DNA from: Bacteroidia bacterium
GTDB lineage: Bacteria; Bacteroidota; Bacteroidia; J057
DNA length: 49,933 nt
Reading direction: 5' to 3'
Assembly: GCA_019695295.1 (NCBI GenBank)
Contig: JAIBAH010000020.1
Span: forward strand, 1-49,933
In this document: positions 23,787-48,696 of the stretch, piece by piece
Layout: the number at the start of each line of letters is the position of its first letter
How positions within the stretch are numbered: position 1 is the stretch's first letter
Translations under genes and position numbers: made by a program
Notes under the pieces: model-generated
Database searches by the model: none
Told to the model about the DNA's origin: nothing
The model's input: only the letters and a program-made list of their open reading frames with translations

Positions 23787-26700
23787 TTATTTAAATTTTA
23801 CATTTACTTCCTGTTCGTCATCCTGAATCCATTTATCCGTTTTATCTCTGGAAATACTGTAGATTTTTCCGGCAGGAATATTGCCTGAATTTTCAAAGCG
23901 GATGAGTTTATCCGGTTTATTGCCAATCGAAATCGTAGCAGAAGGAGGCATTAACTGATATACTTTCAGATTATCAAAATCCGCTTTGGCATTACCCGTT
24001 CTGAATGAAATGAAATTTCCTCCTCCCGAAATGAGCGGGTTTGTATCTTTCCAGGAAAGGACTTTCTGGTTATTAATCCAGACAGTGATGAGGCCTGTGG
24101 CAGATTCCAGCACGATTTTCATATCATACCATTTTCCGTTTTCCATGCTGAAATTGGCGGAGCCTCCTGCTTTGAGTTCAGTGCCCGTTGAACGGTACAC
24201 CTCCAGTTTGTCAGCCATCCTGGGGTCTTCATACTGACGCATCCATACAAGATAGGATTCCCCCCGGTTAGGAAGCGTCCCGTCTGAAGAATAGATATGC
24301 AATCCGAAACGGCGGTTATCTCCTTTGGAAACCAGCTTTGTGCGGAAATGATAAAGGTAAGTTCCCCCTTTTTTCTGGTTTACAGGCAATGCAAGATTTC
24401 CATTAATGGCATTTTCATCCGTCTGACTGAGGCTTCCTTTTTCAGGCACCCATGTTCCGTTTTTTCGAATCCATTTTTCATATAACGTACCCGTCTCAAA
24501 CTCATCCATCGCAAACCCCGCACTTTCATTGGCGTATCTTCCTTTTCCGTTATAGTCCCCTACAAGATAAAATGTCTGAAGAATATTGCCTCCGCCGGGT
24601 GCTCTTAGTGTAAAGTCCTGAGAAATATAGGTTGTATTACCCCCACCAGTATTACTACCACCAGTATTACCCCCACCAGTATTACCCCCACCGGTATTAC
24701 CCCCACCAGTATTACCGCTGCCAAATACAATCACTGTGGAAACGGCGGCTTCTTTTGACCACTGATTTCCTTTATCCAGGACAAGCGAATGAACTCTTGC
24801 TGCAGGAACTTTTGAGCTAAGGCTTGCCACTCTGAAGTCTTTGTCCGCTTCTTTCCCGACTTTCACCTCTACAGAATTGGAGCGGCTTCTGTATATTTTG
24901 AGATTATCAAACTCTGCCATACTTCCACCTGTACGGAAAGAAATTCCTTTTCCGGATTTAAGCGGAGCGGGGTCTGTCCATGTATTCATCAGCTTATTAT
25001 TGAGGAAGACCGTGATTTTGCCATCGGAAGGAGAATACATGACCTTGATATTATAGGCCTTATTGCTTTCAAATTTTACGATTGCGCTATTTTTCATCTC
25101 GAATTTTCCGGTACTACCATCTGTTTTATAAATTTCGATTTTATCTTCTTTGTCGGTATCTCTTGCCCAGATAAAATAAGAATTCCCTCTGTTTTCCTTT
25201 TCGGGGTCATCAGAGAAAAAATGGAACCCGCAGCGTTTATTGGCAGAGTTACCGGTAGTACGGGCATCCCATTCATATAAATAACCGCTGTTTTCGTTCT
25301 GAATTACGTAGGAAGCAATATTGGCGTTATCGGCACTTGCGTCATTTTGAGTGAGCAAACCTTTTTTGGTGTCCCATTTACCCTTTACCGGCTTCCACTC
25401 GCTACTCAGGCCTTTTTCAAAATCGTCATAGTAAAACCCTCTTCCTGTATTTCCTTTCCAGTTTTCTTTTCCTCTGTTTTCAGCTATCAGATAAAACTGC
25501 TGCCCGATTCCTTTGCCACTTTTATCGGTGTCCTCAAAGGTAATGCTTCCATCCGCAGAATAAGTAGGCTTTACGCCGGGTTTGGTTACCGGTGCATTTT
25601 CAGGGTAAGTGATTTTGACCTCAAAGTTGCCTATTACCGGAGTATTTCCGCTACCGGTATTCCCACCACCACTATTTCCTCCACTGTTGTTTCCTCCGCC
25701 GGCATTTCCACCACTGTTGTTTCCACCACCCGTATTTCCACTCCCATTGTTTCCCCCACCGGCATTTCCACCACTGTTTCCGCCTGTTGTCGTATTATTA
25801 TTACTTACGATAATTCCACCGTTGCCTGTACCATTTCCGCCGATAGTTTCCCAGCTGGAGGTCCATCCTTTACCCTGCGTTTTACTGTCGGATGTGAAAT
25901 GAATCGTAAGGGCATTTCCGGTAGAGGTAAACTCTTTTTTGTCGGGATTACTTCCGGAGATTTCACCCAGCTTTTTGGCATTGCGGCTATCTCCGTCATA
26001 CAATGTGATTACATCGGTGGATTCTGTATCAAAGGATCCAAATTTAATTTTTACTTTTCCTCCATTAGCAGGAAGAATGCGGTAGGCATAATCCTCCTTC
26101 GCTGCGTAACCGTTGGCACTCCCTCCGGAGTCAAAGAATTTGCCGTTGTTAAGCGTTGTCGTATAAACGGAAGCGGCACCGGATTTACTCACAGCAGGAG
26201 TGGTAAAATTCCCGGACTCAGCGGCAGAAGTATCTTTACCCACCAGTGCTTTTACCCGGTACTGATATTTTTTCCCTGAGGTAAGCCCGGCTACTTCCAT
26301 CCCTTTTTCACCGGTCTCGTACATTACCCACTTCTCTTCAAGGGTATTTTTAATGTACACAAAATATTTGTCTGCACCGGGGTGTTTCCACGTAATTGCT
26401 GCACCCATCGGATAAATATTTTTGGAGTCAATATCCTCTACCGGAAGCGCAGCCACAGCGGCATTATTTGCGGCATAAGCAATCACAAATCCCCCCTGAT
26501 TAACCTGACAGTCGGAGATAAATTCCATATACACATTTCCGCCTTTTACGGTGATTTTTTGGGGAAGCGTTTTTCCGGAATATCTGCCGATAAACTCTCC
26601 GTCCGGGGTTTTTCCCTGATAGATATCAATATAATCATAGGGCTTACCCGGTTCAGCTTCGAGGTCCATTTCCTGAAAAGTAAGGGTAACAGAAGTAGCA

Positions 26701-28022
26701 CCCGGAGGCTGAATGAAATACCCGATTCTTTGCTGACTACCATAATTTTCGTTTTTGCCCCCATCATCCACCACTTCGCCGGAAGGGCTGTTGAGCATAA
26801 TTCTTTTTTCGGGCAGAAACCCATTCACGAGGCGGTAAAAACGATCCCAGTCCCAGTCTTTTCCCGGGTCAATATGGTCATTTTCAGGAAAATGCTGATG
26901 TCCTTTGATTTTACGGCAGGCATTTCCCAGCGTGAGTTTTCCGGAAGTTCCTTTACCTGAATACATTTTCAGCGGGTCAATTCCTCTCCGTGCACAGATA
27001 TCTTTTACCAGTGCGGCAGAGCTTTCGTACATCGCTGTAGTGTACCAGGTGCCTCCATCTTCGATAAACCCTTCGTGTTCGATTCCGATTGCTTTATCGT
27101 TGTCAGACCTTACATGATACGCCTTATCTTCCTCACAGACCATCTGAGTAATCTGACCATCAAAAGCACGGATAGCGTAATGAGCCGAAACCCTTGCTGC
27201 AGGATTTTTAAACCAGGAGATGCAACTTGCATAAGAACCCTGAATTGTATGAATTGTAATATACTCAATCTTAGCACTTCCCCGGCTACCGTAGTTACTC
27301 CGGTGTGCGGGGTTCCATATTGCCCCTTCAAAGTCGGTTTGACTTTTACTGCCGGAACATCCTTCCGCACTTCTTTCCTCGAGGTATTGACTTCCATCCA
27401 CGGAACGCACTTCGTTTTTGTTGACAGATACAGAACGGGCACTCAGTACTGACGCTTTATTTTTTCCGAAAATTTCCTCATAGTCAAATCCTCCGAGACT
27501 TCTTCCGCTTTTTTCCACCTGCTTTAAAACTGCGTAAAACTGCTGGTCTTTGGCGTATTCTGCCACTACAGAGCCATCATCCGGAATTTCACTCAGGGAT
27601 AAAAGCACATCCTGCTGCTCTTCCACTCCTCTGGAAGTCATATTTTGTTGCTGCTGCATAGTAGCATAGGCTTTGGCGTAAGCAAGGATATTAATTCTCG
27701 GGCTTTTTTTGATTTCTTCTTCGGAGTATCCTGATAATTTTGCTACAGATTTGAGGTTTTCCTTGAAATATCCTTTTCCGTTATCTACCAGTCCCATTAC
27801 CCCGTAAAAAGGAGGCATGCCTGAACAGGTAGATACATTGGGGTCAGGGACTAAGTGATGCATACGCGTATTGGTATAGGCTACTGATTCCAGTAATCCG
27901 AGAGGGATTGTAGGGTTCAGACGATAGGCCTCCTCAAAATATTCCGAGTAGTCCTTTTGAGCATAAGCGGTAGAAATAAAAAAGGATAGTATTATAATAA
28001 TTATAACCGATGGACTTCTCAT
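23787..28022 (-). CDS. Giant amidase_2 protein with CUB, FN3 and repeated beta modules
   Basis: A 1411-residue protein with signal peptide about 1-22. Residues about 25-180 resemble a lysozyme/peptidase-associated helical domain. The N-acetylmuramoyl-L-alanine amidase domain spans about 235-400 (zinc ligands plausible in ITIHTIQG, KGHQHFPENDHIDPG; catalytic Glu in GIEHEG). CUB 1 is at about 410-515, FN3 at about 525-610, CUB 2 at about 620-735, a GGN-rich linker at about 735-795, module A at about 815-1100, a second GGN linker at about 1100-1130, and module B at about 1140-1411. Modules A and B are homologous to the chitinase-like protein's module. There is no type A sorting domain at the end (it stops ...EVNVKFK), so its final location is unclear. 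Probably cleaves peptidoglycan stems. Confidence 0.85.
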   Translation of the reverse strand: MRSPSVIIIIILSFFISTAYAQKDYSEYFEEAYRLNPTIPLGLLESVAYTNTRMHHLVPDPNVSTCSGMPPFYGVMGLVDNGKGYFKENLKSVAKLSGYSEEEIKKSPRINILAYAKAYATMQQQQNMTSRGVEEQQDVLLSLSEIPDDGSVVAEYAKDQQFYAVLKQVEKSGRSLGGFDYEEIFGKNKASVLSARSVSVNKNEVRSVDGSQYLEERSAEGCSGSKSQTDFEGAIWNPAHRSNYGSRGSAKIEYITIHTIQGSYASCISWFKNPAARVSAHYAIRAFDGQITQMVCEEDKAYHVRSDNDKAIGIEHEGFIEDGGTWYTTAMYESSAALVKDICARRGIDPLKMYSGKGTSGKLTLGNACRKIKGHQHFPENDHIDPGKDWDWDRFYRLVNGFLPEKRIMLNSPSGEVVDDGGKNENYGSQQRIGYFIQPPGATSVTLTFQEMDLEAEPGKPYDYIDIYQGKTPDGEFIGRYSGKTLPQKITVKGGNVYMEFISDCQVNQGGFVIAYAANNAAVAALPVEDIDSKNIYPMGAAITWKHPGADKYFVYIKNTLEEKWVMYETGEKGMEVAGLTSGKKYQYRVKALVGKDTSAAESGNFTTPAVSKSGAASVYTTTLNNGKFFDSGGSANGYAAKEDYAYRILPANGGKVKIKFGSFDTESTDVITLYDGDSRNAKKLGEISGSNPDKKEFTSTGNALTIHFTSDSKTQGKGWTSSWETIGGNGTGNGGIIVSNNNTTTGGNSGGNAGGGNNGSGNTGGGNNSGGNAGGGNNSGGNSGGGNTGSGNTPVIGNFEVKITYPENAPVTKPGVKPTYSADGSITFEDTDKSGKGIGQQFYLIAENRGKENWKGNTGRGFYYDDFEKGLSSEWKPVKGKWDTKKGLLTQNDASADNANIASYVIQNENSGYLYEWDARTTGNSANKRCGFHFFSDDPEKENRGNSYFIWARDTDKEDKIEIYKTDGSTGKFEMKNSAIVKFESNKAYNIKVMYSPSDGKITVFLNNKLMNTWTDPAPLKSGKGISFRTGGSMAEFDNLKIYRSRSNSVEVKVGKEADKDFRVASLSSKVPAARVHSLVLDKGNQWSKEAAVSTVIVFGSGNTGGGNTGGGNTGGGNTGGSNTGGGNTTYISQDFTLRAPGGGNILQTFYLVGDYNGKGRYANESAGFAMDEFETGTLYEKWIRKNGTWVPEKGSLSQTDENAINGNLALPVNQKKGGTYLYHFRTKLVSKGDNRRFGLHIYSSDGTLPNRGESYLVWMRQYEDPRMADKLEVYRSTGTELKAGGSANFSMENGKWYDMKIVLESATGLITVWINNQKVLSWKDTNPLISGGGNFISFRTGNAKADFDNLKVYQLMPPSATISIGNKPDKLIRFENSGNIPAGKIYSISRDKTDKWIQDDEQEVNVKFK
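24636..24710 (-). repeat. 15-bp tandem repeat encoding a GGGNT linker
   Basis: Five consecutive 15-bp units (plus-strand unit ATTACCCCCACCAGT) differ by only one or two bases. They encode GGNTG-type residues between beta modules of the amidase protein. The near-identity suggests recent slippage, and unit number may vary among strains. Confidence 0.85.
25640..25830 (-). repeat. Longer GGN-rich linker repeat
   Basis: Irregular 12-15-bp units encode NGGGNTG/NSGGNAG-type sequence between the second CUB domain and module A. It is more diverged than the 24636-24710 array. It is a flexible spacer by composition. Confidence 0.75.
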
Positions 28023-31055: not shown

Positions 31056-34000
31056 ATGAATATGCTACGAAAAATCAGTTTTATTGTGTTTTTCTTTACC
31101 GTTCTTGTATCCATTGCCGTGGGGCAGGATGGTAAAATTTCGGGACGTGTGTACGACGATAAGGGGAATCCCGTTCAGTACCCCACTGTCTCTCTCTTAA
31201 GAGGGGAGGAAGTGGTAAATGGTGCTTACGGAGATGACCAGGGATTCTACAGTATTCAGCCTGTGGATCCCGGAACCTATACCGTACAAGCAGACATTCT
31301 TGGGGGAACAATCAAAATCGAAAACGTATCTGTTGCCTCAGGTCAAACAAGGGATTTGGACATTCGCCTCCCTTCAGGGCAGCAAATGAGAACCGATTCC
31401 GTAATCATTGTTTCATTCCGTATTCCGGTTTTTGAAAAAGACCCGGGTGCTCAGGGAACAATCGTGGACGGAAAGCAGGTAAGAAACAGGGGCTCACGTA
31501 ATATCAATGCGATAGCTTCTACTACTCCGGGGGTATTCCAGTCGGATGAGGGAGACAATTCTCTTTCATTCAGGGGAGCACGCGAAGGAGGTACAATGTA
31601 TATAGTGGACGGGGTGAAAGTAAGGGGCTCCCCTAATCTTCCTCAGTCTGCTATCGGACAAATGCAGATTATTACAGGGGGTACACCTTCTGAGTACGGA
31701 GACTTTACGGGAGGGGTAGTTTCGATTACTACCGCCAATCCCGCAAACAAACTTTCCGGAGGGCTTGAACTTGTGACCAGTGAGTTGCTCGATGCTTATG
31801 GCAGAAACCTCGCAGGGGTAAATATTACCGGTCCGCTTATCAAAAAAACCATCACTGACCCTGAGCGTCCTGAACTTAGCTACAAACGCTCTGTCGTGGG
31901 CTTTTTCCTCAGCGGGGAGTATGACTACAATCGCGATGCTGACCCGGCCTATTTCGGCCTTTACAAACTGGATCCGGATAAACTGGCTGACCTTCAGGCA
32001 AATCCTATGATTTACAACCCTTCTCTTACTACATTTGTAAATACAGGAAACTACCTGAAAGGCTCGGATTTGATTCCGGTAAAAGCCAAAGCATATAATC
32101 AGGATGTAAATATCAGAGGGCTTGCCCGTATTGATATTCAGCCTGCTGACAATATCTCTATTAAATTAGGAGGTTCTGCTGAATTATTTAACAGTAATGC
32201 CGGTACATGGAGCTTAAGAAACATGTTGCTTTCCCCTAACCCGGGCGGAAGATATACCGGAGGTTCTTACAGAGCATACGCACGTTTCCAGCAATCCTTC
32301 AAAGGGGAAGCCAATGCTGCTTTGAAAAATTTCTTCTATACACTTCAGGCAGACTACTCTTTATTCCAAAGACAGTTTGAACACAGAACTTTTCAGGATA
32401 ATTTATGGGATTACGGGTTCATTGGAAAATTAACCTATGATAGGAATCCTGTATTCCGTTATATAGCTGACCCTATGGGAAGCCCTTACTCTTCCGGTCC
32501 TTACTGGGAAAATGTGGGATATGGTTTCTCTAACCTACAGTTTGACGGAACCGGAACCAACAATCAGGTGCTTGCCAATGCTAATCGCTATATCTTTGAT
32601 TACGTTGCCAATAATGGTATCTTCCTTCCTGATTTCGGAGTTACAATTAATGACCTTTCCAATCCTAACTTGTTGAGTTTCTTCAACGGATACAGAAATG
32701 GGGATGGTCCTGATCAGATTTATCAGATGTTCACAGGATTAGGTGCTCAGTATGGTACTTACCGTAACCGTAAACAGGAGCAATTCCGTCTTACAGGACA
32801 AGCTACAGCAGAAATCAAAAGACACAATCTGAAAATCGGATTTGAATTTGAACAAAGGGTGGAAAGAGACTATAATCTCGGCGCAAGTGCTATGTGGAAC
32901 TATGCTCGCCTTTACGCAAATCGTCAGCTTCAGGGGGTAAATCGGGATAATCCTACTTTCGTTACCAGAGATGGAGAATTTCAGGATACTATTATCTATC
33001 CTATCGCTTACGATGCTGCTTTACAAACACAGTTTGATAAAAAACTACGGGAAGCATTGGGTCAGCCAATGGACGGTACAAACTGGATTAATACAGATGC
33101 ACTCGATCCTCAGTTTTTTAATTCTAAGCCTTTAGGGTATTGGTTCACCGCTAGTGAAATGCTAAACAACGGTCAGGGATTTTTGGGAGGATATTACGGA
33201 TATACTTATGACGGAAAAATCGCAAAAAGAGTGGATCCTGCACAGTTCTTTACAGATACCCTGAACCGCCCTCAAAATGCGTTTTCTCCTACTTATATTT
33301 CTGCATTTATTCAGGATAAATTTGAGTTAGAAGACATTATCTTCAACCTTGGGGTACGTGTTGACCGTTTTGACGCAAATCAGCAGGTGTTAAAGGATAA
33401 TTATCTGTTGTATCCTGCTTACAGTGCCGCAGAAGCAGCAAATCGTGTAGGAGCATCTTTACCGTCATCTGTTAGTGCTGATTATATCCCTTACGTAGAT
33501 GATATTCAAAACCCTACCCGTATTATCGGATACAGAACAGGAGAAACTTGGTTTGACGCAAACGGAGCACCTACTTCTTCCTCTGCTATTGCCGCAGCAT
33601 CCGGCGGAAAACCGCTTCCGTATGTAAAAAGAACGGACAATGAGCCGGTGGGAATTGACGCATTTCAGGATTACGCACCGCAAACGGTTGTAATGCCTCG
33701 TATGTCGTTCTCTTTCCCGATTGCTGAAAACGCACTGTTTTTCGCTCACTACGATGTACTTGCTCAAAGACCGGGTCAGTTACTCTCCAATCAGTCTTCA
33801 TTCCTTGCAGGTCAGCTTTCAGATTATTTATACCTGAGAACGAACCCTACAATTGATATCATTAATCCGAATCTGAAGCCTGAGATTACTACTGACTACG
33901 AAGCGGGTTTCAGACAAAAAATCGGAACAAACTCCGCTATCTCTTTGTCTGCATACTATCGTGAAATGCGTAATATGATTCAGTATCGCCGCTATAATAA

Positions 34001-34802
34001 TGCTTATCCGATTACCTATAATTCTTATGACAATATTGACTTCGGAACGGTAAAAGGATTCTCATTATCTTATAATATGCGCCGGATTAAACAACTTGAA
34101 CTTTCGGCTTCCTATACCCTTCAGTTTGCTACTGCTACCGGTTCGGATTTCTCTTCCAGCCGTGGGGTAACCGATAACTTACAGGGCACTGCTTTATTGC
34201 GTACTCTCTTACCGGTAGGTACAGATCAGCGTCACAGAATTACCGCTTCTCTTGACTATCGTTTTGGAGAAGAGTTTGAAGGAGCCACCAAAGGCCCCGG
34301 TATCAAAATCGGCGAAAAAGTTTTCTATCCTTTTGCCAATGCCGGTGCTAATGCAACCTTCATCCTGGGTTCAGGTACACCTTATTCCCGTCAGCTTGGG
34401 GTGACTTCTATCCTTGACGGTCAGGTTACCGGTGGTCAGACGCTCGGAACACCCAACAGCAACAGATTACCATGGCAGTTCAGAACAGACCTGAGGATTG
34501 ATAAAAATCTGGTATTCGGTGGTAAGCCTAAAGCAGGAAGCGACGAGCCCGGAAGAGGTTATACAATGAATATTTATCTGTTGGCACTGAATGCATTTAA
34601 TACTCAAAACATTACCGGAGTTTACAGATTTACAGGACTTCCTTTTGATGATGGATTCTTACAAAGCCCTCAGGGTGCACAGTCTATCCAGAGCCAGATT
34701 AATCCTGAATCATTTGTGGATCTTTATCAGGCAAGATTGAGAAACCCCAACAATGTAGCGATGCCGAGAAGAATCAGACTTGGTATGATATTCAGTTTTT
34801 AA
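31056..34802 (+). CDS. TonB-dependent receptor-like outer-membrane protein
   Basis: A 1248-residue protein with signal peptide 1-23. A carboxypeptidase-regulatory-like domain spans about 25-105 (GKISGRVYDDKGNPVQYPTVSLL). The plug domain is at about 140-235 (NINAIASTTPGVFQSDEGDNSLSFRGAREGGTMYIVDGV, then GTPSEYGDFTGGVVSITT). A long beta-barrel follows, ending RIRLGMIFSF with the terminal aromatic typical of outer-membrane barrels. First gene of a three-gene unit with an exported giant and a PorV-family protein. The substrate is unknown, and it may be a surface-complex component rather than a nutrient importer. Confidence 0.88.
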   Translation: MNMLRKISFIVFFFTVLVSIAVGQDGKISGRVYDDKGNPVQYPTVSLLRGEEVVNGAYGDDQGFYSIQPVDPGTYTVQADILGGTIKIENVSVASGQTRDLDIRLPSGQQMRTDSVIIVSFRIPVFEKDPGAQGTIVDGKQVRNRGSRNINAIASTTPGVFQSDEGDNSLSFRGAREGGTMYIVDGVKVRGSPNLPQSAIGQMQIITGGTPSEYGDFTGGVVSITTANPANKLSGGLELVTSELLDAYGRNLAGVNITGPLIKKTITDPERPELSYKRSVVGFFLSGEYDYNRDADPAYFGLYKLDPDKLADLQANPMIYNPSLTTFVNTGNYLKGSDLIPVKAKAYNQDVNIRGLARIDIQPADNISIKLGGSAELFNSNAGTWSLRNMLLSPNPGGRYTGGSYRAYARFQQSFKGEANAALKNFFYTLQADYSLFQRQFEHRTFQDNLWDYGFIGKLTYDRNPVFRYIADPMGSPYSSGPYWENVGYGFSNLQFDGTGTNNQVLANANRYIFDYVANNGIFLPDFGVTINDLSNPNLLSFFNGYRNGDGPDQIYQMFTGLGAQYGTYRNRKQEQFRLTGQATAEIKRHNLKIGFEFEQRVERDYNLGASAMWNYARLYANRQLQGVNRDNPTFVTRDGEFQDTIIYPIAYDAALQTQFDKKLREALGQPMDGTNWINTDALDPQFFNSKPLGYWFTASEMLNNGQGFLGGYYGYTYDGKIAKRVDPAQFFTDTLNRPQNAFSPTYISAFIQDKFELEDIIFNLGVRVDRFDANQQVLKDNYLLYPAYSAAEAANRVGASLPSSVSADYIPYVDDIQNPTRIIGYRTGETWFDANGAPTSSSAIAAASGGKPLPYVKRTDNEPVGIDAFQDYAPQTVVMPRMSFSFPIAENALFFAHYDVLAQRPGQLLSNQSSFLAGQLSDYLYLRTNPTIDIINPNLKPEITTDYEAGFRQKIGTNSAISLSAYYREMRNMIQYRRYNNAYPITYNSYDNIDFGTVKGFSLSYNMRRIKQLELSASYTLQFATATGSDFSSSRGVTDNLQGTALLRTLLPVGTDQRHRITASLDYRFGEEFEGATKGPGIKIGEKVFYPFANAGANATFILGSGTPYSRQLGVTSILDGQVTGGQTLGTPNSNRLPWQFRTDLRIDKNLVFGGKPKAGSDEPGRGYTMNIYLLALNAFNTQNITGVYRFTGLPFDDGFLQSPQGAQSIQSQINPESFVDLYQARLRNPNNVAMPRRIRLGMIFSF

Positions 34803-34831
34803 TTCCGGATAATCACTATTTGTAATATTAA

Positions 34832-34871
34832 GGGTAAGAAAAAAAGGACTAACCTACTTTTTTTCTTACCC
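34832..34871 (+). terminator. Perfect 15-bp inverted repeat between operon genes
   Basis: GGGTAAGAAAAAAAG (34832-34846) pairs perfectly with CTTTTTTTCTTACCC (34857-34871) around a 10-nt loop. It lies 29 bp after the receptor stop and 29 bp before the next ATG. It lacks a T tract after the stem, so it may be an RNA-stability or partial-termination element rather than a full terminator. Confidence 0.6.
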
Positions 34872-34900
34872 CCCAAATAAGATAAAAAATTAATCAATAA

Positions 34901-37900
34901 ATGAAAATGAAGTACATACAAAGTATTCTTTTAGCTTATATCTTCCTCTTCCTTTCGGGAACGATGTATGCAGAACGGGTGCCGGGTCAGGGAGCACATC
35001 CCAATAAAGGCTTCCGAACCGCAGAGGCCTGCGTGCCTCCGAGTGCAAGCGCTCAGCTGGATATAAACAATGTAAGATGTTTGCTCCATAATGGCGGAGA
35101 TATGTGGTGGGACCTTGTAGGAAATCCTCGTTATGAAATTCCTAAAGGAAGCGGAAGACACTCCCTTTTTGCTTCTTCTCTTTGGATTGGAGGAACTGAC
35201 GCAGCCGGACAAATGAGGGTGGCTGCTTCTACCTATCGTCAGAGCGGATATGACTTCTGGCCGGGTCCTTTGACTCAGGGTAATGCAGAGGTGGACAATA
35301 GCATTTGTGAAAAGTGGAATAAAATGTATAAAATCACCAAAGCTGAAATCGATGCTTTTCGTGCTGATTTTGATGCCAACGGAGCCAATGTGGATTTGAG
35401 TAAATATCCTAACGTTGCTGCATGGCCCTGGACAGGAAAAGACCTTGACGGGAATGATGTACAGGCTCAGTGGAACGGAAAAACCATTTATATGGCCCCT
35501 TTCGTGGACGTAGATGGAAATCCGCTTGAATATAATGCAGGTCAGGGTGATTATCCCGATATCAGAGGAGACGAAGCCGTTTGGTGGGTAATCAATGATA
35601 AAGGAAATATTCATACCGAAACAGGCGGTGAGCCAATCGGGGTAGAGATTCATATGATGGCTTTTGCTTTTACTACTGCAAACTCTATCAACAATATGAC
35701 TTTCTACGATCAGTTGGTGATTAACCGCTCCAGTTTGTTGCTTACTGAAACCTATATGGGACAGTGGGTGGATGCAGACCTTGGATACTATAAAGATGAC
35801 TATGTAGGTTGTGATACTACAAGAGGATTGGGTATTTGCTACAACTCTGACAATGATGACAACCTCCCTACCGGTTACGGTACTAACCCTCCGGCTGTAG
35901 GGGTGGACTTCTTCCAGGGACCGCTCGCAGACCCCGGTGACGGAATTGATAATGACAAGGACGGAGTAACCGATGAGGATGGAGAAACCATCATCATGTC
36001 CAAGTTTGTATATTATAATAATGACTTCTCCCTTAAAGGAAATCCTGAAACTGCAATTCATTACTATAACTACCTCAGAGGTATCTGGAAAGACGGTACG
36101 AGAATGGTGGCTAACGGTAGAGATGCTTATGCACCTACTGCACCAGGAGATGCTACAGACTATATCTTCTCCGGTAATATCTGTACTCAGACAGGATGGA
36201 CAGAAAATGCAGCAGGAAATGCTGCGGACGACCGTCGTTTCTTACAAAGTGCGGGTCCCTTTACGCTTCAGCCTGGTGCTGTAAATCAGGTAATCACTGG
36301 AGTAGTTTGGGCAAGAGGTTCCAGTCAGTTCAATTCAGTTTGTCAGTTGATTATTGCTGACGATGTTGCTCAGGCTTTGTTTGATAACAATTTCCGTCTC
36401 CTTGAAGGTCCCGATGCTCCTGAAGTAGCAGTGGGAGAGTATAATAATGAAATTATTCTTACCTGGGGATATTCTAATCCGAATGACAACAACTTTAATG
36501 AAAGCTATGTTCAGGCTGACCCGGTATTGAAAGCCAATGGCTCTCCTGACTCCCTTTTCAAATTTCAGGGTTATGTTGTATATCAGCTTGCCAATGAAAC
36601 GGTAGGTTTGAATGACCTCTCCGACCCCGAAAAAGCAAAAGTGATTGCTCAATGTGATGTCATTGACGGTGTCTCCACGATTGTAAATCGGGTTGAATCC
36701 AATGTGGATGGTAATGTAGTAATCGAAGATAAGGTAATGGTTCAGGGGGAAAATAAAGGTATCTTCCATTCTATTCGAATTAAGGATGATGTTTTTGCTA
36801 ATAATGAATTTACGAACCTTAAAAACTATACACCTTATACATTTGCCGTAATTGCCTATGCTTATGGGGATACCTCTTCGGATGGACGTAGGTTTGTGCC
36901 GGGTAATGGTAAATTCTCCAGAGCTAAGGTGATAGCAACGCCTCACCCTGTATCTTTTGAACAGAATGGTATGGTGATTAGTAGTGAATACGGGGACGGT
37001 GTTCCGGTATCTCAAATCGGAGGTTATGGAAATGGTGGTAATTTCGTTCGCTTAGACTCTGTATCTGAAGCGGCAATTGTAGCTAATAACACTACGGATA
37101 AGATTACATATAAAGGCGGAGCCGCCCCTATCTCTGTAAAAGTCGTAAACCCTAAAGAGGTAAAAGGTTCTGATTACAAAGTGGAAGTAGTAGGCAAGCA
37201 ATTTGTTAGTGCTAAATACTTATATACCAACTTAAATGGCGTTGATGTCATAGATACTACCTGGGCAGACTGGGTACTGTATGAAGGAGGAACGAAGATA
37301 TACGAATCCAAATATATTATAAGGAATGATGGAAGTGCTCCAAGACCTAGCCCTCTTTCCGGAAACGAACAGGTTATTGACGGTCACGGCATTTCCATCT
37401 CTGTAAGGGATGTAGAGCAGGCCGGGGATACCGTCTCTACCAATGCCGGAATTATCGGTTCTGAACTGACTTTTGGAGATGTAAACAAAAAATGGCTTAC
37501 TGGTCTTCAGGATGATGACAGTGATCCTAATGCACCATGGAACTGGATTCTTGCTGGTTCTAAATCCAGTACCGGTGGTAGTGAAAACCGTGTGTACAGG
37601 AGTGCAGGGATCTATGATAAGTTCCAGAATTTTGAAAAAATTGTGGATGGGACGTGGGCTCCTTTCTGTTTTGCTCGTGAGTTTTCCAACAGTAGTGCTT
37701 CGGGCACAGACATTCGCCCGGGGTTACCGATGGGTACTGTACGCTCTTATCGTCAGATGTCTGCGGAAGAAGCACTCGGACTTCCCGAACTCACCGATTT
37801 TGACTTGGTTATTACACCTGATGAAAGCAAATGGACTCGTTGTGTGGTATTGGAAACAAGCCCGAATACTACCTTGGGTTCAGGTTCATGGCTGATGTCT

Positions 37901-38830
37901 GCTAAATGGATGGCCAATGTAGATAAAGCCGGAAATCCTGAATCTCTCGCACCTCAGTTGGGTAATCATGGGATGGGATGGTTCCCCGGCTATGCGATTA
38001 ATGTGAATACAGGACAAAGGGTATGTGTTTTCTTTGGTGAAAGTACTTGGGATCACGTAAACAGAGGGGACGATATGATGTTTAACCCTACAAGTAGTTA
38101 TGGTTCTAATCTTGACCGCGTAGGAGGAAGACACTATATTTACATCACTGACCTGCCTTATACCGGTACAAACGGAGGCGGACTGGATTCTCTCCGTAAA
38201 TATCTCCTGAATGACAATAACGCTGCTTACGGAAACTTCTCCGACGGTATCGCATTCCTCAAAGGGACTGATACACTCAATACGGCTTTCCTCTATAATC
38301 ATGTAGCCTGGACTTCAGTAGCAATGGCTTCTTTTGGATATGATGTGGATGATCCGCATGATTTCCCTTCTGACGCAAGAGTTTCAGTTCGTCTGAATCA
38401 GAAATATCAGAACAGAGTATTTAACAGTGCTGCTGCAAACGGAAATCCTACCTATACTTTCAGCACTACCTCTGTTGGGGTAAAAACAGAAGTACAGGAT
38501 ACCGCAGTTTCTGCACTGGATTTGATTCAGGTGGTACCGAACCCCTATTATGGTTATAGCGATTATGAAAACGGACAGTTGGAAAGCCTTGTAAAACTTA
38601 CAAACCTTCCTCAAACTTGTACGATTTCTATCTTCTCTATGAACGGTCAGTTAATCAAGACTTTCAATAAAGATTCCGATAGCCCCGAACAAACTTGGGA
38701 TTTGAAGAATCAGAATGGTGTACCTGTAGCAAGCGGGGTGTATATAGTACACATCAATGCACCGGGTATAGGAGAGAAAGTTGTAAAACTATTTGCAGTA
38801 ATGCGTCAGCTTGACCTGAACGGATTCTAA
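34901..38830 (+). CDS. Giant exported protein with T9SS-like C-terminal domain
   Basis: A 1309-residue protein with signal peptide about 1-24. The start of the mature part (LDINNVRCLLHNGGDMWWDLVGNPRYEIPKGSG, then LFASSLWIGGTDAAGQ) is a recurring but functionally uncharacterised Bacteroidota family. A Ca-binding-like DPGDGIDNDKDGVTDEDG segment lies at about 347-364. FN3-like strands follow. The C-terminus (VVPNPYYGYSDYE ... IFSMNGQLI ... VASGVYIVHINAPG) is a T9SS/FlgD-like sorting domain variant ending LDLNGF. It sits between a TonB-type receptor and a PorV-family gene. Role: surface protein, otherwise unknown. Confidence 0.8.
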   Translation: MKMKYIQSILLAYIFLFLSGTMYAERVPGQGAHPNKGFRTAEACVPPSASAQLDINNVRCLLHNGGDMWWDLVGNPRYEIPKGSGRHSLFASSLWIGGTDAAGQMRVAASTYRQSGYDFWPGPLTQGNAEVDNSICEKWNKMYKITKAEIDAFRADFDANGANVDLSKYPNVAAWPWTGKDLDGNDVQAQWNGKTIYMAPFVDVDGNPLEYNAGQGDYPDIRGDEAVWWVINDKGNIHTETGGEPIGVEIHMMAFAFTTANSINNMTFYDQLVINRSSLLLTETYMGQWVDADLGYYKDDYVGCDTTRGLGICYNSDNDDNLPTGYGTNPPAVGVDFFQGPLADPGDGIDNDKDGVTDEDGETIIMSKFVYYNNDFSLKGNPETAIHYYNYLRGIWKDGTRMVANGRDAYAPTAPGDATDYIFSGNICTQTGWTENAAGNAADDRRFLQSAGPFTLQPGAVNQVITGVVWARGSSQFNSVCQLIIADDVAQALFDNNFRLLEGPDAPEVAVGEYNNEIILTWGYSNPNDNNFNESYVQADPVLKANGSPDSLFKFQGYVVYQLANETVGLNDLSDPEKAKVIAQCDVIDGVSTIVNRVESNVDGNVVIEDKVMVQGENKGIFHSIRIKDDVFANNEFTNLKNYTPYTFAVIAYAYGDTSSDGRRFVPGNGKFSRAKVIATPHPVSFEQNGMVISSEYGDGVPVSQIGGYGNGGNFVRLDSVSEAAIVANNTTDKITYKGGAAPISVKVVNPKEVKGSDYKVEVVGKQFVSAKYLYTNLNGVDVIDTTWADWVLYEGGTKIYESKYIIRNDGSAPRPSPLSGNEQVIDGHGISISVRDVEQAGDTVSTNAGIIGSELTFGDVNKKWLTGLQDDDSDPNAPWNWILAGSKSSTGGSENRVYRSAGIYDKFQNFEKIVDGTWAPFCFAREFSNSSASGTDIRPGLPMGTVRSYRQMSAEEALGLPELTDFDLVITPDESKWTRCVVLETSPNTTLGSGSWLMSAKWMANVDKAGNPESLAPQLGNHGMGWFPGYAINVNTGQRVCVFFGESTWDHVNRGDDMMFNPTSSYGSNLDRVGGRHYIYITDLPYTGTNGGGLDSLRKYLLNDNNAAYGNFSDGIAFLKGTDTLNTAFLYNHVAWTSVAMASFGYDVDDPHDFPSDARVSVRLNQKYQNRVFNSAAANGNPTYTFSTTSVGVKTEVQDTAVSALDLIQVVPNPYYGYSDYENGQLESLVKLTNLPQTCTISIFSMNGQLIKTFNKDSDSPEQTWDLKNQNGVPVASGVYIVHINAPGIGEKVVKLFAVMRQLDLNGF

Positions 38831-38840
38831 TATTCCAATG

Positions 38841-38879
38841 CCGGCTTCCCTTTTTCCAAAGCGGAAGAGGGAAGTCCGG
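38841..38879 (+). terminator. Hairpin before the PorV-family gene
   Basis: CCGGCTTCCCT and AGGGAAGTCCGG arms with an inner TTCC/GGAA pairing form a long GC-rich hairpin. AAATTTTTT follows at 38881. The ATG of the next gene is 33 bp downstream, so it may attenuate or stabilise. Confidence 0.6.
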
Positions 38880-38911
38880 TAAATTTTTTAAAGCCAAATA
38901 AATTTTAAAGT

Positions 38912-39982
38912 ATGAAAAATAAAATACTGTTAATAAGTATATTCTTGATGGGTACAGCAACCGCTGTGTTTGCGCAACCTAATCGTATCGGGCAGTCAGG
39001 GGCTTCTGAATTACTGATGAATACCACTGCAAAAAGTAGCGGATTTAATGGAATCAATATTGGTAGTTCGGATGGAATTGAAAGCGCATCCGTAAACCCT
39101 GCCGGAGTGGCTACAACGATGGGAACTGAACTGGTTTTTGCTCATACCCGTTGGTTAATCGGTACAGGAATCTCTGTGAACTCTATCGGTTTATCTCAGG
39201 CTTTGGGAGAAGAAGGTTCTGGCGGAGTGATTGGAATTAATGTAAACTCTCTTAGTTTAGGAAAATTTTATCGTACCACCACCAATCAGCCGGATGGAAA
39301 TATCGGTACATTTTCTCCTTCTTTTGCCAATATTGGTGTAACATACGCAAAGAAGTTTACAGACCATATTTATGTGGGTGCTACTTTAAGAATGATTAGT
39401 CAGGCGACTCCGGATGTTTCTGCTTTTGGGGCTTGTTTTGATGCCGGAGTTCAGTACCGGGCTTTGGAAAATGACGCACTGAAACTCGGTATCACCCTCA
39501 GAAACGTAGGGCCTGCAATGAAATACTCCGGACAGGGACTGGAAAACCGTGCTCCCCTTCAGCTTACCAATCCCTATAATAACGCAGTGGCTATTCCTAC
39601 TGATAAGTTTGAGTTACCTTCTCTGCTTACAATGGGAGGATCATATGATATTCACGCAGGAGAAAACAATACAATTTCTCTTCTCGGAGGATTTATTTCC
39701 AACGCTTTTTACTACAATCAGCTAGGAGCAGGTGTGCAGTATCAGTTTAAAAATATTGTTGCTTTACGTGCAAGTTATTTATATGAAAAAGGAATTACCG
39801 GAGAGTTGGGTGTGGACAGATATTCTGCCTATACCGGACTTGCAGGAGGAGCTACCTTTCAGGTCCCTTTCAAGGCTTCCAAGAAAAGCGACCGTAACTC
39901 ATTGTTTGGGCTGGATTTAAGCTACCGTACTTCAAATCCTTTTGGGGGTACGCTTTCTTTTGGCGCAAGAGTAGATTTATAA
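38912..39982 (+). CDS. PorV/PorQ-family outer-membrane protein
   Basis: A 356-residue protein with signal peptide 1-21. The FadL-like barrel family of PorV/PorQ is suggested by GASELLMNTTAKSSGFNGINIGSSDGIESASVNPAGVA near 31-68, by YAKKFTDHIYVGATLRMI near 147, and by the barrel end GGTLSFGARVDL. PorV carries T9SS cargo from the translocon to the attachment complex and PorQ works in the same system. This copy could be a dedicated paralogue for its upstream neighbour, but that is inference. Confidence 0.75.
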   Translation: MKNKILLISIFLMGTATAVFAQPNRIGQSGASELLMNTTAKSSGFNGINIGSSDGIESASVNPAGVATTMGTELVFAHTRWLIGTGISVNSIGLSQALGEEGSGGVIGINVNSLSLGKFYRTTTNQPDGNIGTFSPSFANIGVTYAKKFTDHIYVGATLRMISQATPDVSAFGACFDAGVQYRALENDALKLGITLRNVGPAMKYSGQGLENRAPLQLTNPYNNAVAIPTDKFELPSLLTMGGSYDIHAGENNTISLLGGFISNAFYYNQLGAGVQYQFKNIVALRASYLYEKGITGELGVDRYSAYTGLAGGATFQVPFKASKKSDRNSLFGLDLSYRTSNPFGGTLSFGARVDL

Positions 39983-40026: not shown

Positions 40027-40072
40027 TAATTTAAAAAAGTAAGGATTGGTAAGTGCCAATCCTGCTTTTTTT
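40027..40072 (+). ncRNA. Candidate short leader RNA of greA (GraL-like arrangement)
   Basis: Only about 15 nt after the expected start, AGGATTGG (40042-40049) pairs with CCAATCCT (40056-40063) around a 6-nt loop, followed by GC and seven T. This is a strong intrinsic terminator. It would release an RNA of about 45 nt from the greA promoter. E. coli greA also has a leader terminator producing small GraL RNAs of about this size (from memory). The sequence itself is not expected to be similar. Existence of the RNA is inferred. Confidence 0.55.
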
Positions 40073-40112
40073 AGTTTTAAAGGTTAGTTTTTACATTCAC
40101 AAAAATATTTTA

Positions 40113-40134
40113 AAAGACGCATGATTGCGTCTTT
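40113..40134 (+). terminator. Second hairpin in the greA leader
   Basis: AAAGACGCA (40113-40121), a TGAT loop and TGCGTCTTT (40126-40134): a 9-bp perfect stem followed by ATTATTTG. It lies 58 bp before the greA ATG and could be a second attenuation point. Confidence 0.55.
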
Positions 40135-45858: not shown

Positions 45859-48696
45859 TCACCACTTATCAAACTCAAACGTCCAGGAGACGTATCCCAT
45901 TCTTCCGAGGAGTGGGGAGCCGAATGCGGTTCTGTACCGGTTATTCAGGAGGTTTGAGCCCCCGATTCTGAGTACGGAATGAAGCTTTTCGAAGGCGTAA
46001 TTTAGCTGAGCGTCGAGCGTTCCGTATGCGGGAATCCATCCGTTGGCGAAAGTGCTTTGCCAGTAAAATTTGTTCTGATGGCGGTAGTTTATATTAAACC
46101 CGAATCCTTTCCATACTTTATTGCCGCTGATTCCGACACTTATTTTGTGAGCCGGTGTATTGAAGCCTGGGATTATTCCATCTTTTACGATTTTGGAGGA
46201 GTCAATCCCTGAGTAAGTATAATTCAGGTTTCCGGCAATGCCTTTTCCGAAATAATAGGCAAGTCCGAGCGCAGCGCCGTAGGAAGTTACCGTCTGAGTG
46301 GAATTGATGGGAATCTGAAGCATTTCATAATTGCCGGTGATGAGGGCGTCGCTGCCACTTTCTTCGCCCGCTACTGCCCCTTTTGAAGTAGGGGAAATAA
46401 CCCGCTTTTCGCCGATAAAATTCTTGTAATTATTGAAATATCCTACCGCGTCAATGAAGAGTTTGTTTTCAAACGAAGTACGATATCCTACCTCGATGGT
46501 ACGCACCTGTTCCGGACGCAGTTTGGGAATCGTCAGGGTTTTGAGTAAAGCATCATTGTATTCGTAGGTAGAGTCATAAAGCTGAACAAAATCTTTGGCG
46601 GATTCCAGCTCATACAGATTGGTATGCCCCAGCAGATTGCCCTCTAACCGGAAATTCACAAACTCATCATTCCGGATAATAGGTACCTGCCCGAGCGTCA
46701 GGAGGATAAACTGATTCTGGAGAGTAGGGGTACGGAAAGCCGATTGGGCAGAAACCCGGAAAATATGATAATTTTGTTTGAATACGAGGGAAGCTCTGGG
46801 AGAAAGCTGAGGGAGAAAATTCTGATTTTTATCTGCACGTACAGAAGCAATCAGGTTGAGTTTATCCTTAAGGAATTTTGCAGAGGCCTGCGTATAAGCT
46901 CCGATTTCCCATACAGAAAGCGGTACAAATGCAGCAGAAAGGTCAGCCGCTCCGTTTTCCAGCGTATCCGCACGGTTGATGAGGGTATCTCTGAAAATAG
47001 TACCATAGGACTGCGGATTATACCTCCGGAAATTTCCTCCCGTAATCCAGTTAATGGATTTGCTTTTGAGGGGAATATTATATTGCCCCTCGACATGCTG
47101 AAGAGAAGAAGCATCCGTAAATTTAGCGCCTTTGCTCAGGTTGGCATTGGTTACAATTGCGTTATACTGATTCGTAAAAGCCTCCGTACCGGGTTTAAGC
47201 CACGCATTGGTGCCTGCCTGAGCGACGGCTGCGCTGTGTGCCCTTTCTATCATCCAGTCTTTGGCTTCTCCGGGAGAAACCGAGGGGTCAGTAGTTCCGC
47301 CTCTTGCATGATACAATAACGTATCAAAATAAGTTGTCAGATAATTTTTTACATAATTTTCTACTCCTTTTTTAGATAAATTCAGGGCAGTAAATACCAA
47401 ATCATAGGAATCTCCTGCATTTTCTATCGAATTATAGGCTCTCAGATTAAAGTTTTTTCCGGTAAGTTCCAGTTTTTGCTGATGAAAAGTAATATTATTA
47501 ATGCTGTAGCGGTTGGTACCCTGATATACAGCCGTACCGTTTCCGTATTTATAGGAAAGAGAAACCTGAAGGCTATCTTTTAATTTATACGCTACTTCTC
47601 CTCCCAGTTTTACACTTTTGGTGTTATAATCCGTAAGGTCTTTTTCCATATATCCGGGGGTTGTAATATCAATTTTGCCGGGATAAGCCTGTTTGTTGAA
47701 ATCCAGATAAGCCAGCAGATTGGTATATTTGACAGAGTCCGGACCATTTACCTGCCCCTGAACAATTGCGCTTAAGTCCTGATTGGTCGTGAAGTCGCCG
47801 TAGCGGTTGGTGATTTCGTCTGAGGCCTCAAAATCTTTTACGCTGGAATAGGAGCCGGAAAGTTTAAATGCGAGTTTCTTGTTTTTTCCTATGGCTTTTG
47901 CATACCGGAATTGTCCGTCCATCAGATTCCGGTTTCCTCCTTTTAGCTGTACCGTTAATCCCTGAAAATCAAAAGGATTTTTGGTAGCCATACTCACTAC
48001 TCCCTGAAAAGCGTTAGGCCCGTACAAGGCAGAGGCAGGTCCTGTAATAATCTCAATGCTTTGTAAATCAATATCCGTAGCGCCGACAAGGTTTCCAACA
48101 GGGAAATTGAGTCCGGGAGCCTGATTGTCCACTCCATCAATAAACTGTACCACCCGCACCGGAGAAGTACTGTTGAATCCCCGGGTATTAAAAGCCCTGA
48201 ACCCCAGACTGGAGGTTACGATATCTACCCCTTTCAGATTGGCAAGTCCCTCATAGAAGTCTCCTGAGGCGGTAGAACGAATGGAAAGCGTATTGATTTT
48301 CTGAATGGAAACAGGCGATTGCTGTACTGTTTCGGCTACCCTTGAACCCGTTACTACGACTTCATTCCCTTGCAGGAAAGAAGCCTCCATCAGGATTTCA
48401 CCCATATCAATCGTACTGGAAACCAGCAGAGTAACAGACTCTTTATGGTCTGCATATCCTAAATAACTGATGATGATATCAAAAGGAGGCGAAAGATTTT
48501 CTGTATTAACCGTAAACGCACCGGATGCATCCGTGATACTCCCAAAAGTGCCGGCTACCGTAACCGTTGCATCCGACAAAGCATCACCCGTTTTTTTGTC
48601 TTTGACAGTACCGGTAATAGTCAGCGATTGTGCTGATACGGTCAGGGACATCATACAACCAATCCCCATTGCAATTATCAGTAAAATTCTTTTCAT
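45859..48696 (-). CDS. TonB-dependent outer-membrane receptor
   Basis: A 945-residue protein with signal peptide about 1-22. A carboxypeptidase-regulatory-like domain spans about 24-105. A TonB-box-like EVVVTGSR is near 110. The plug domain spans about 115-240 (GLANLKGVDIVTSSLGFRAFNTRGFN, then SIEIITGPASALYGPNAFQGVV). The 22-strand-type barrel ends in an aromatic-rich WTFEFDKW. Likely imports a siderophore, cobamide or glycan. The substrate cannot be inferred from context. Confidence 0.9.
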   Translation of the reverse strand: MKRILLIIAMGIGCMMSLTVSAQSLTITGTVKDKKTGDALSDATVTVAGTFGSITDASGAFTVNTENLSPPFDIIISYLGYADHKESVTLLVSSTIDMGEILMEASFLQGNEVVVTGSRVAETVQQSPVSIQKINTLSIRSTASGDFYEGLANLKGVDIVTSSLGFRAFNTRGFNSTSPVRVVQFIDGVDNQAPGLNFPVGNLVGATDIDLQSIEIITGPASALYGPNAFQGVVSMATKNPFDFQGLTVQLKGGNRNLMDGQFRYAKAIGKNKKLAFKLSGSYSSVKDFEASDEITNRYGDFTTNQDLSAIVQGQVNGPDSVKYTNLLAYLDFNKQAYPGKIDITTPGYMEKDLTDYNTKSVKLGGEVAYKLKDSLQVSLSYKYGNGTAVYQGTNRYSINNITFHQQKLELTGKNFNLRAYNSIENAGDSYDLVFTALNLSKKGVENYVKNYLTTYFDTLLYHARGGTTDPSVSPGEAKDWMIERAHSAAVAQAGTNAWLKPGTEAFTNQYNAIVTNANLSKGAKFTDASSLQHVEGQYNIPLKSKSINWITGGNFRRYNPQSYGTIFRDTLINRADTLENGAADLSAAFVPLSVWEIGAYTQASAKFLKDKLNLIASVRADKNQNFLPQLSPRASLVFKQNYHIFRVSAQSAFRTPTLQNQFILLTLGQVPIIRNDEFVNFRLEGNLLGHTNLYELESAKDFVQLYDSTYEYNDALLKTLTIPKLRPEQVRTIEVGYRTSFENKLFIDAVGYFNNYKNFIGEKRVISPTSKGAVAGEESGSDALITGNYEMLQIPINSTQTVTSYGAALGLAYYFGKGIAGNLNYTYSGIDSSKIVKDGIIPGFNTPAHKISVGISGNKVWKGFGFNINYRHQNKFYWQSTFANGWIPAYGTLDAQLNYAFEKLHSVLRIGGSNLLNNRYRTAFGSPLLGRMGYVSWTFEFDKW

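Follow-up and report, generated by a model that had tools for sequence, protein, structure and literature searches.

In P. gingivalis, PorU and PorZ retain their sorting domains (CTDs), which stay attached to PorV and PorQ; a review has suggested that cognate PorV-like barrels may shield CTDs from cleavage (PMC10202324). Type A CTDs are all said to use PorV, and proteins with type B CTDs have dedicated PorP/SprF barrels, the genes for which lie immediately downstream (PMC12618676). In the literature searched on PorV paralogues, dedicated shuttles and links between TonB-dependent receptors (TBDRs) and the T9SS, with preprints and most subscription journals lying outside its scope, a triad of TBDR, T9SS cargo and PorV paralogue is not described. 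The parts are known, but their combination and its wide distribution seem to be undescribed.

The window, a stretch of 49,933 nucleotides that corresponds to contig 16 of the host assembly (4.9 Mb, 97% complete), carries such a triad at positions 31056-39982. It consists of three uninterrupted open reading frames on one strand, with intergenic gaps of 98 bp between the TBDR and cargo genes and 81 bp between the cargo and barrel genes, and N-terminal signal peptides can be seen by eye in the encoded proteins. Two 9-pair terminator-like hairpins found by a consensus scan (40042-40134, assigned to neither strand), one of them with a T run, sit between the last gene of the triad and greA (40193); over the whole scanned region, the number of terminators was not above that in shuffles. 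A plasmid search gave no match. Elsewhere in the window, a 1411-aa exported protein (23787-28022, minus strand) contains long Gly/Asn-rich repeats and weakly resembles AmpD-like amidases (35 bits against a cut-off of 143), and a second, unrelated TBDR (45859-48696, minus strand) is nearest to heme and siderophore receptors, below every cut-off.

The first gene of the triad (31056-34802, plus strand) encodes a 1248-aa TBDR, confirming the outer-membrane TonB-type barrel that the initial annotation had read from the sequence. Its architecture comprises a signal peptide, a CarboxypepD_reg-like N-terminal domain (PF13620, 49.2 bits, above its cut-off), a TonB-box-like stretch, a plug (PF07715, 33.9 bits, cut-off 23.9) and a barrel (PF00593, 53.6 bits, cut-off 27), and the family profile matches TBDRs of known structure. 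The TonB-box-like stretch, DSVIIVSFRIPVFEKD, precedes the plug and can be aligned across the family, which retains it along with the plug and the barrel, as would be expected of an active transporter. None of the SusC/RagA models in NCBIfam matched the protein, which is therefore not of the SusC type.

The second gene (34901-38830, plus strand) encodes a large exported T9SS cargo of 1309 aa, which its homologues and their conservation profile divide into a novel conserved domain (about residues 50-500), an FN3-like region (about 505-690), a variable part and the CTD, the CTD and parts of the N-terminal domain being the best-conserved stretches. The N-terminal domain matches no Pfam family, Pfam detects no SusD domain in the cargo, and domain and profile searches found no classification beyond the CTD and the possible FN3 region; among the homologues, Pfam gave only weak fn3 and FlgD-Ig matches, with fn3 seen in one of them. 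The CTD spans residues 1205-1309 (38513-38827, plus strand). The type A model TIGR04183 matches residues 1230-1289 with 26.9 bits (cut-off 23) while Por_Secre_tail (PF18962) reaches only 20.0 bits, under its Pfam cut-off of 27, and for this reason the earlier description of a variant sorting domain is apt. The domain is type-A-like, or FlgD-Ig-like, and ends in an additional conserved tail (...LDLNGF); no protein of the window matched the type B CTD or PorP models. A profile of this CTD type shows it to be single-copy in its own genome (147 bits, runner-up 50), and the closest solved structure to the profile is the C-terminus of PorZ (E 0.003), followed more weakly by PorU. As to the Ca-binding-like loops, also attributed to the cargo at the outset, the loop DNDKDG is present near residue 350, but a DxDxDG motif is not invariant; roughly half of the homologues carry one, and we rejected it as a defining feature. 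Structure predictions were too poor to use, with a pLDDT of 29 for the barrel on its own and of 26 for the N-terminal domain of the cargo, given two sequences.

The third gene (38912-39982, plus strand) encodes a 356-aa outer-membrane barrel whose annotated membership in the PorV/PorQ family holds, with 109.5 bits against NF033709 (curated cut-off 90). The barrel falls outside the PorV clade (NF033710, 42.9 bits, cut-off 250), the PorQ clade (NF033711, 70.1 bits, cut-off 220) and the PorV2 clade, for which NF052325 (cut-off 325 bits) gave no match at E 0.01. The host genome has six PorV-family genes, namely PorV (C19), PorQ (C1), PorV2 (C42), unnamed members on C180 and C76, and the triad barrel. 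The idea that the triad barrel is the only PorV of its genome is rejected by the clear PorV elsewhere, and with a true PorV, a PorQ and a PorV2 encoded apart from the triad, the barrel is not the general shuttle. In the same genome, PorU2 (NF052324) adjoins PorV2 as a pair of CTD protein and PorV paralogue (L045:3657-9846, on C42), and the two PorV-family genes that, besides the triad barrel, are none of PorV, PorQ and PorV2 lie at L044:9205-10221 and L046:8989-9852, the second scoring under the family cut-off. In a phylogeny with the housekeeping PorV and PorQ, the barrels of the triad loci form a clade of their own (39 rows, SH-aLRT 97), separate from PorV (99), PorQ and its relatives (100), PorV2 (99) and the barrels of other triads. 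The subclades within it largely track class, which points to a mainly vertical descent of the barrel.

The triad depends on T9SS genomes. Cargo homologues were found in 195 of 395 sampled Bacteroidota genomes, and SprA is present in 194 of these 195, the lone exception being a weak cargo match. Among SprA-positive genomes, the cargo occurs in 183 of 211 from other classes (174 strong) and in 11 of 92 from its own class (8 strong). Its own order gives a match in 21 of 22 genomes, 18 of them strong by our reading of the table and the rest weak, CTD-only or partial, so losses of the triad do occur. G401 and G408, from the same genus and family, have CTD-only matches without a real cargo homologue. 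The closest named relative, a Bacteroidia metagenome assembly, shows 54% in the cargo.

To survey gene neighbourhoods, we took about 60 loci and called their open reading frames, the counts being based on the 53 cargo genes that are flanked by a gene at each end, away from contig edges. A TBDR lies directly upstream of the cargo gene in 48 loci and a PorV-like gene directly downstream in 47, with both neighbours present on the same strand in 46 of the 53. The gene order is thus conserved far beyond chance; these counts reject the converse, a lack of conserved order, and bear out the proposal that the three surface-directed genes form one unit. No fourth gene conserved in all lineages was found among the surveyed loci. 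In own-class loci, two genes sized like the window's greA and HIT-family gene commonly come after the triad. A GWxTD-domain protein (TIGR04514) is encoded directly after the PorV-like gene at L093:12562-13926 and beside the triad in L080, L082, L084, L087, L092, L097, L100 and L064. Four loci (L077, L101, L072 and L090) have the triad or the cargo gene repeated in tandem, which suggests that the module has been duplicated locally.

The tie between this CTD type and an adjacent PorV-family gene extends beyond the orthologous triad. In a profile search for this CTD type across 13 genomes, a same-strand PorV-family gene followed within less than 700 bp in 37 of the 45 strongest matches, against 8 of 66 weaker ones. 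Six of those eight precede the highest-scoring PorV gene of their genome and are apparently PorU-PorV pairs. We then read 20 CTD-PorV pairs other than the orthologous triad, from five genomes, and found a TBDR of the same broad family directly upstream in 19. Together, the adjacent PorV genes and upstream TBDRs establish TBDR, CTD protein and PorV paralogue as a recurrent module, and the triad of the window is one member of a class of such triads that is multicopy in other classes of the phylum. The cargos of the further pairs range from about 620 to 1300 aa, the shorter ones sharing little besides the CTD, and BNR repeats occur in one distant pair, which is without a TBDR.

Our best explanation of these data, to which we give about an even chance as a whole, is that the three gene products form one outer-membrane complex. 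The T9SS translocon would carry the cargo across the outer membrane, where the dedicated, adjacent PorV paralogue would take its special CTD, keep it uncleaved and anchor the cargo, in the manner of PorV with PorU and PorQ with PorZ. The large N-terminal body of the cargo would lie on top of the TBDR and serve as its capture subunit outside the cell. The triad would then resemble a SusC-SusD pair, except that its lid would reach the surface through the T9SS and be held there by a barrel instead of a lipid. Taken separately, it is likely that the barrel receives the CTD of its cargo and anchors the protein, because PorU and PorZ CTDs stay barrel-bound, the triad CTD is nearest to that of PorZ, and type B CTD proteins offer a precedent. 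That the cargo sits with the TBDR is fairly probable, and the chance that it acts as a capture lid for uptake, resembling SusCD, falls just short of even. The initial annotation had suggested a dedicated export or surface-assembly complex. The conserved triad, the separate true PorV and the barrel's own clade strongly support a dedicated unit for surface assembly that is based on a PorV paralogue, and we favor a permanent CTD receptor and anchor over a moving export shuttle.

Among the alternatives, the one that survives best, although we consider it unlikely, is that a large adhesin or surface-layer-like protein is mounted on a static platform made of the barrel and the TBDR-like protein, with no import. 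The cargo is indeed large, conserved over the phylum as a single-copy orthologue and equipped with an FN3-like region, and type B CTD proteins, which have dedicated barrels, are known or predicted adhesins (PMC12618676). However, a TBDR family that keeps its plug, barrel and TonB-box-like stretch argues against a purely structural role, as does the retention of the TBDR in 19/20 paralogous triads.

Covariation among the components supports a linked unit of cargo body, TBDR and barrel, although a similar signal would be expected if the cluster had been transferred as a whole. In partial Mantel tests on 31 genomes, with the housekeeping PorV as control, the cargo N-terminal part correlated with the TBDR (partial r 0.59-0.61 given the others) and the TBDR with the barrel (0.52-0.55), whereas the value for the TBDR and the housekeeping PorV was about 0. 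The CTD gave a partial r of 0.10-0.15 with the triad barrel when PorV was included (p 0.04-0.08), down from 0.22 (p 0.003) without this control, and of 0.23 with the housekeeping PorV (p 0.01); we dropped CTD-barrel covariation as evidence of binding. Because the CTD is tied no more to the barrel than to PorV, the cargo might be delivered by the ordinary PorV, acting first at the translocon. These tests also weigh on a rather improbable reading in which the PorV paralogue is a dedicated shuttle that only ferries the CTD from the translocon, without a stable complex, and the co-transcribed TBDR works separately: type B CTD and PorP/SprF pairs, with the shuttle gene directly downstream, are a close parallel (PMC12618676), but the TBDR stands upstream in 48/53 and 19/20 cases and co-varies with the cargo body and the barrel. 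Very unlikely is a third gene encoding a FadL-like channel for hydrophobic molecules beside a cargo that is an ordinary type A substrate of the general PorV, for although PorV is a FadL homologue (PMC12578637), the barrel profile touches the FadL proteins TodX, TbuX and CymD and the CTD co-varies with the housekeeping PorV too, those FadL matches are weak (~1e-4) next to that with the solved PorV 6h3i (2.4e-24), and the barrel genes go with the special CTD type, not with CTDs in general.

The preferred three-protein complex, with its CTD anchored by the barrel and its cargo as the TBDR lid, invites comparison with the distribution of SusD. Five triad-rich genomes have 0 SusD genes, whereas two genomes of the own class that lack the cargo have 38 and 41. 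Few SusD genes are also found in some mainstream genomes (G017 has 1), and an inverse relation between PorV-family and SusD counts in 13 genomes was not significant (rho -0.33, p 0.27). Only tentatively, and leaning somewhat towards doubt, do we extend the model to phylum-wide machines in which a TBDR works with a T9SS-exported lid anchored by a PorV paralogue through an uncleaved CTD, an ancient parallel to SusCD that would be multicopy in other classes and represented by one orthologue in a few Bacteroidia lineages. If true, this would overturn the working rule of one PorV shuttle for all type-A-like CTDs, account for the expansion of the PorV family, which reaches up to 18 genes in one genome, and assign a probable partner to several orphan TBDRs and to very large surface proteins of unknown function. 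The triad also offers a direct test of the suggested protection of CTDs by cognate PorV-like barrels (PMC10202324).

Four described systems share features with the triad. The PorU-PorV and PorZ-PorQ pairs of the attachment complex have, like the proposed triad, a PorV-family barrel that holds the CTD of its partner protein; by profile, PorZ and PorU are the solved structures closest to the triad CTD, and PorU-like CTD genes also adjoin PorV. Unlike these pairs, the triad includes a TBDR, its cargo lacks the PorU peptidase or any other recognised domain, and its barrel belongs to a different clade. PorU2-PorV2, a pair also present in this genome, likewise combines a PorV paralogue with a CTD protein, but its cargo is a predicted peptidase, it has no TBDR and its barrel forms a separate clade. 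Type B CTD proteins and PorP/SprF share with the triad a barrel dedicated to one cargo, with its gene immediately after the cargo gene, and a cargo-specific CTD type, whereas the triad CTD is type-A-like, its barrel is of the PorV family and a TBDR is part of the unit. Finally, SusC-SusD resembles the triad in pairing a TBDR gene with a large surface protein and in being multicopy in some genomes. The triad TBDR, however, is without the SusC signature and the cargo is not SusD; in place of the lipoprotein signal of SusC-SusD, export and anchoring in the triad would proceed through a T9SS CTD and a barrel.
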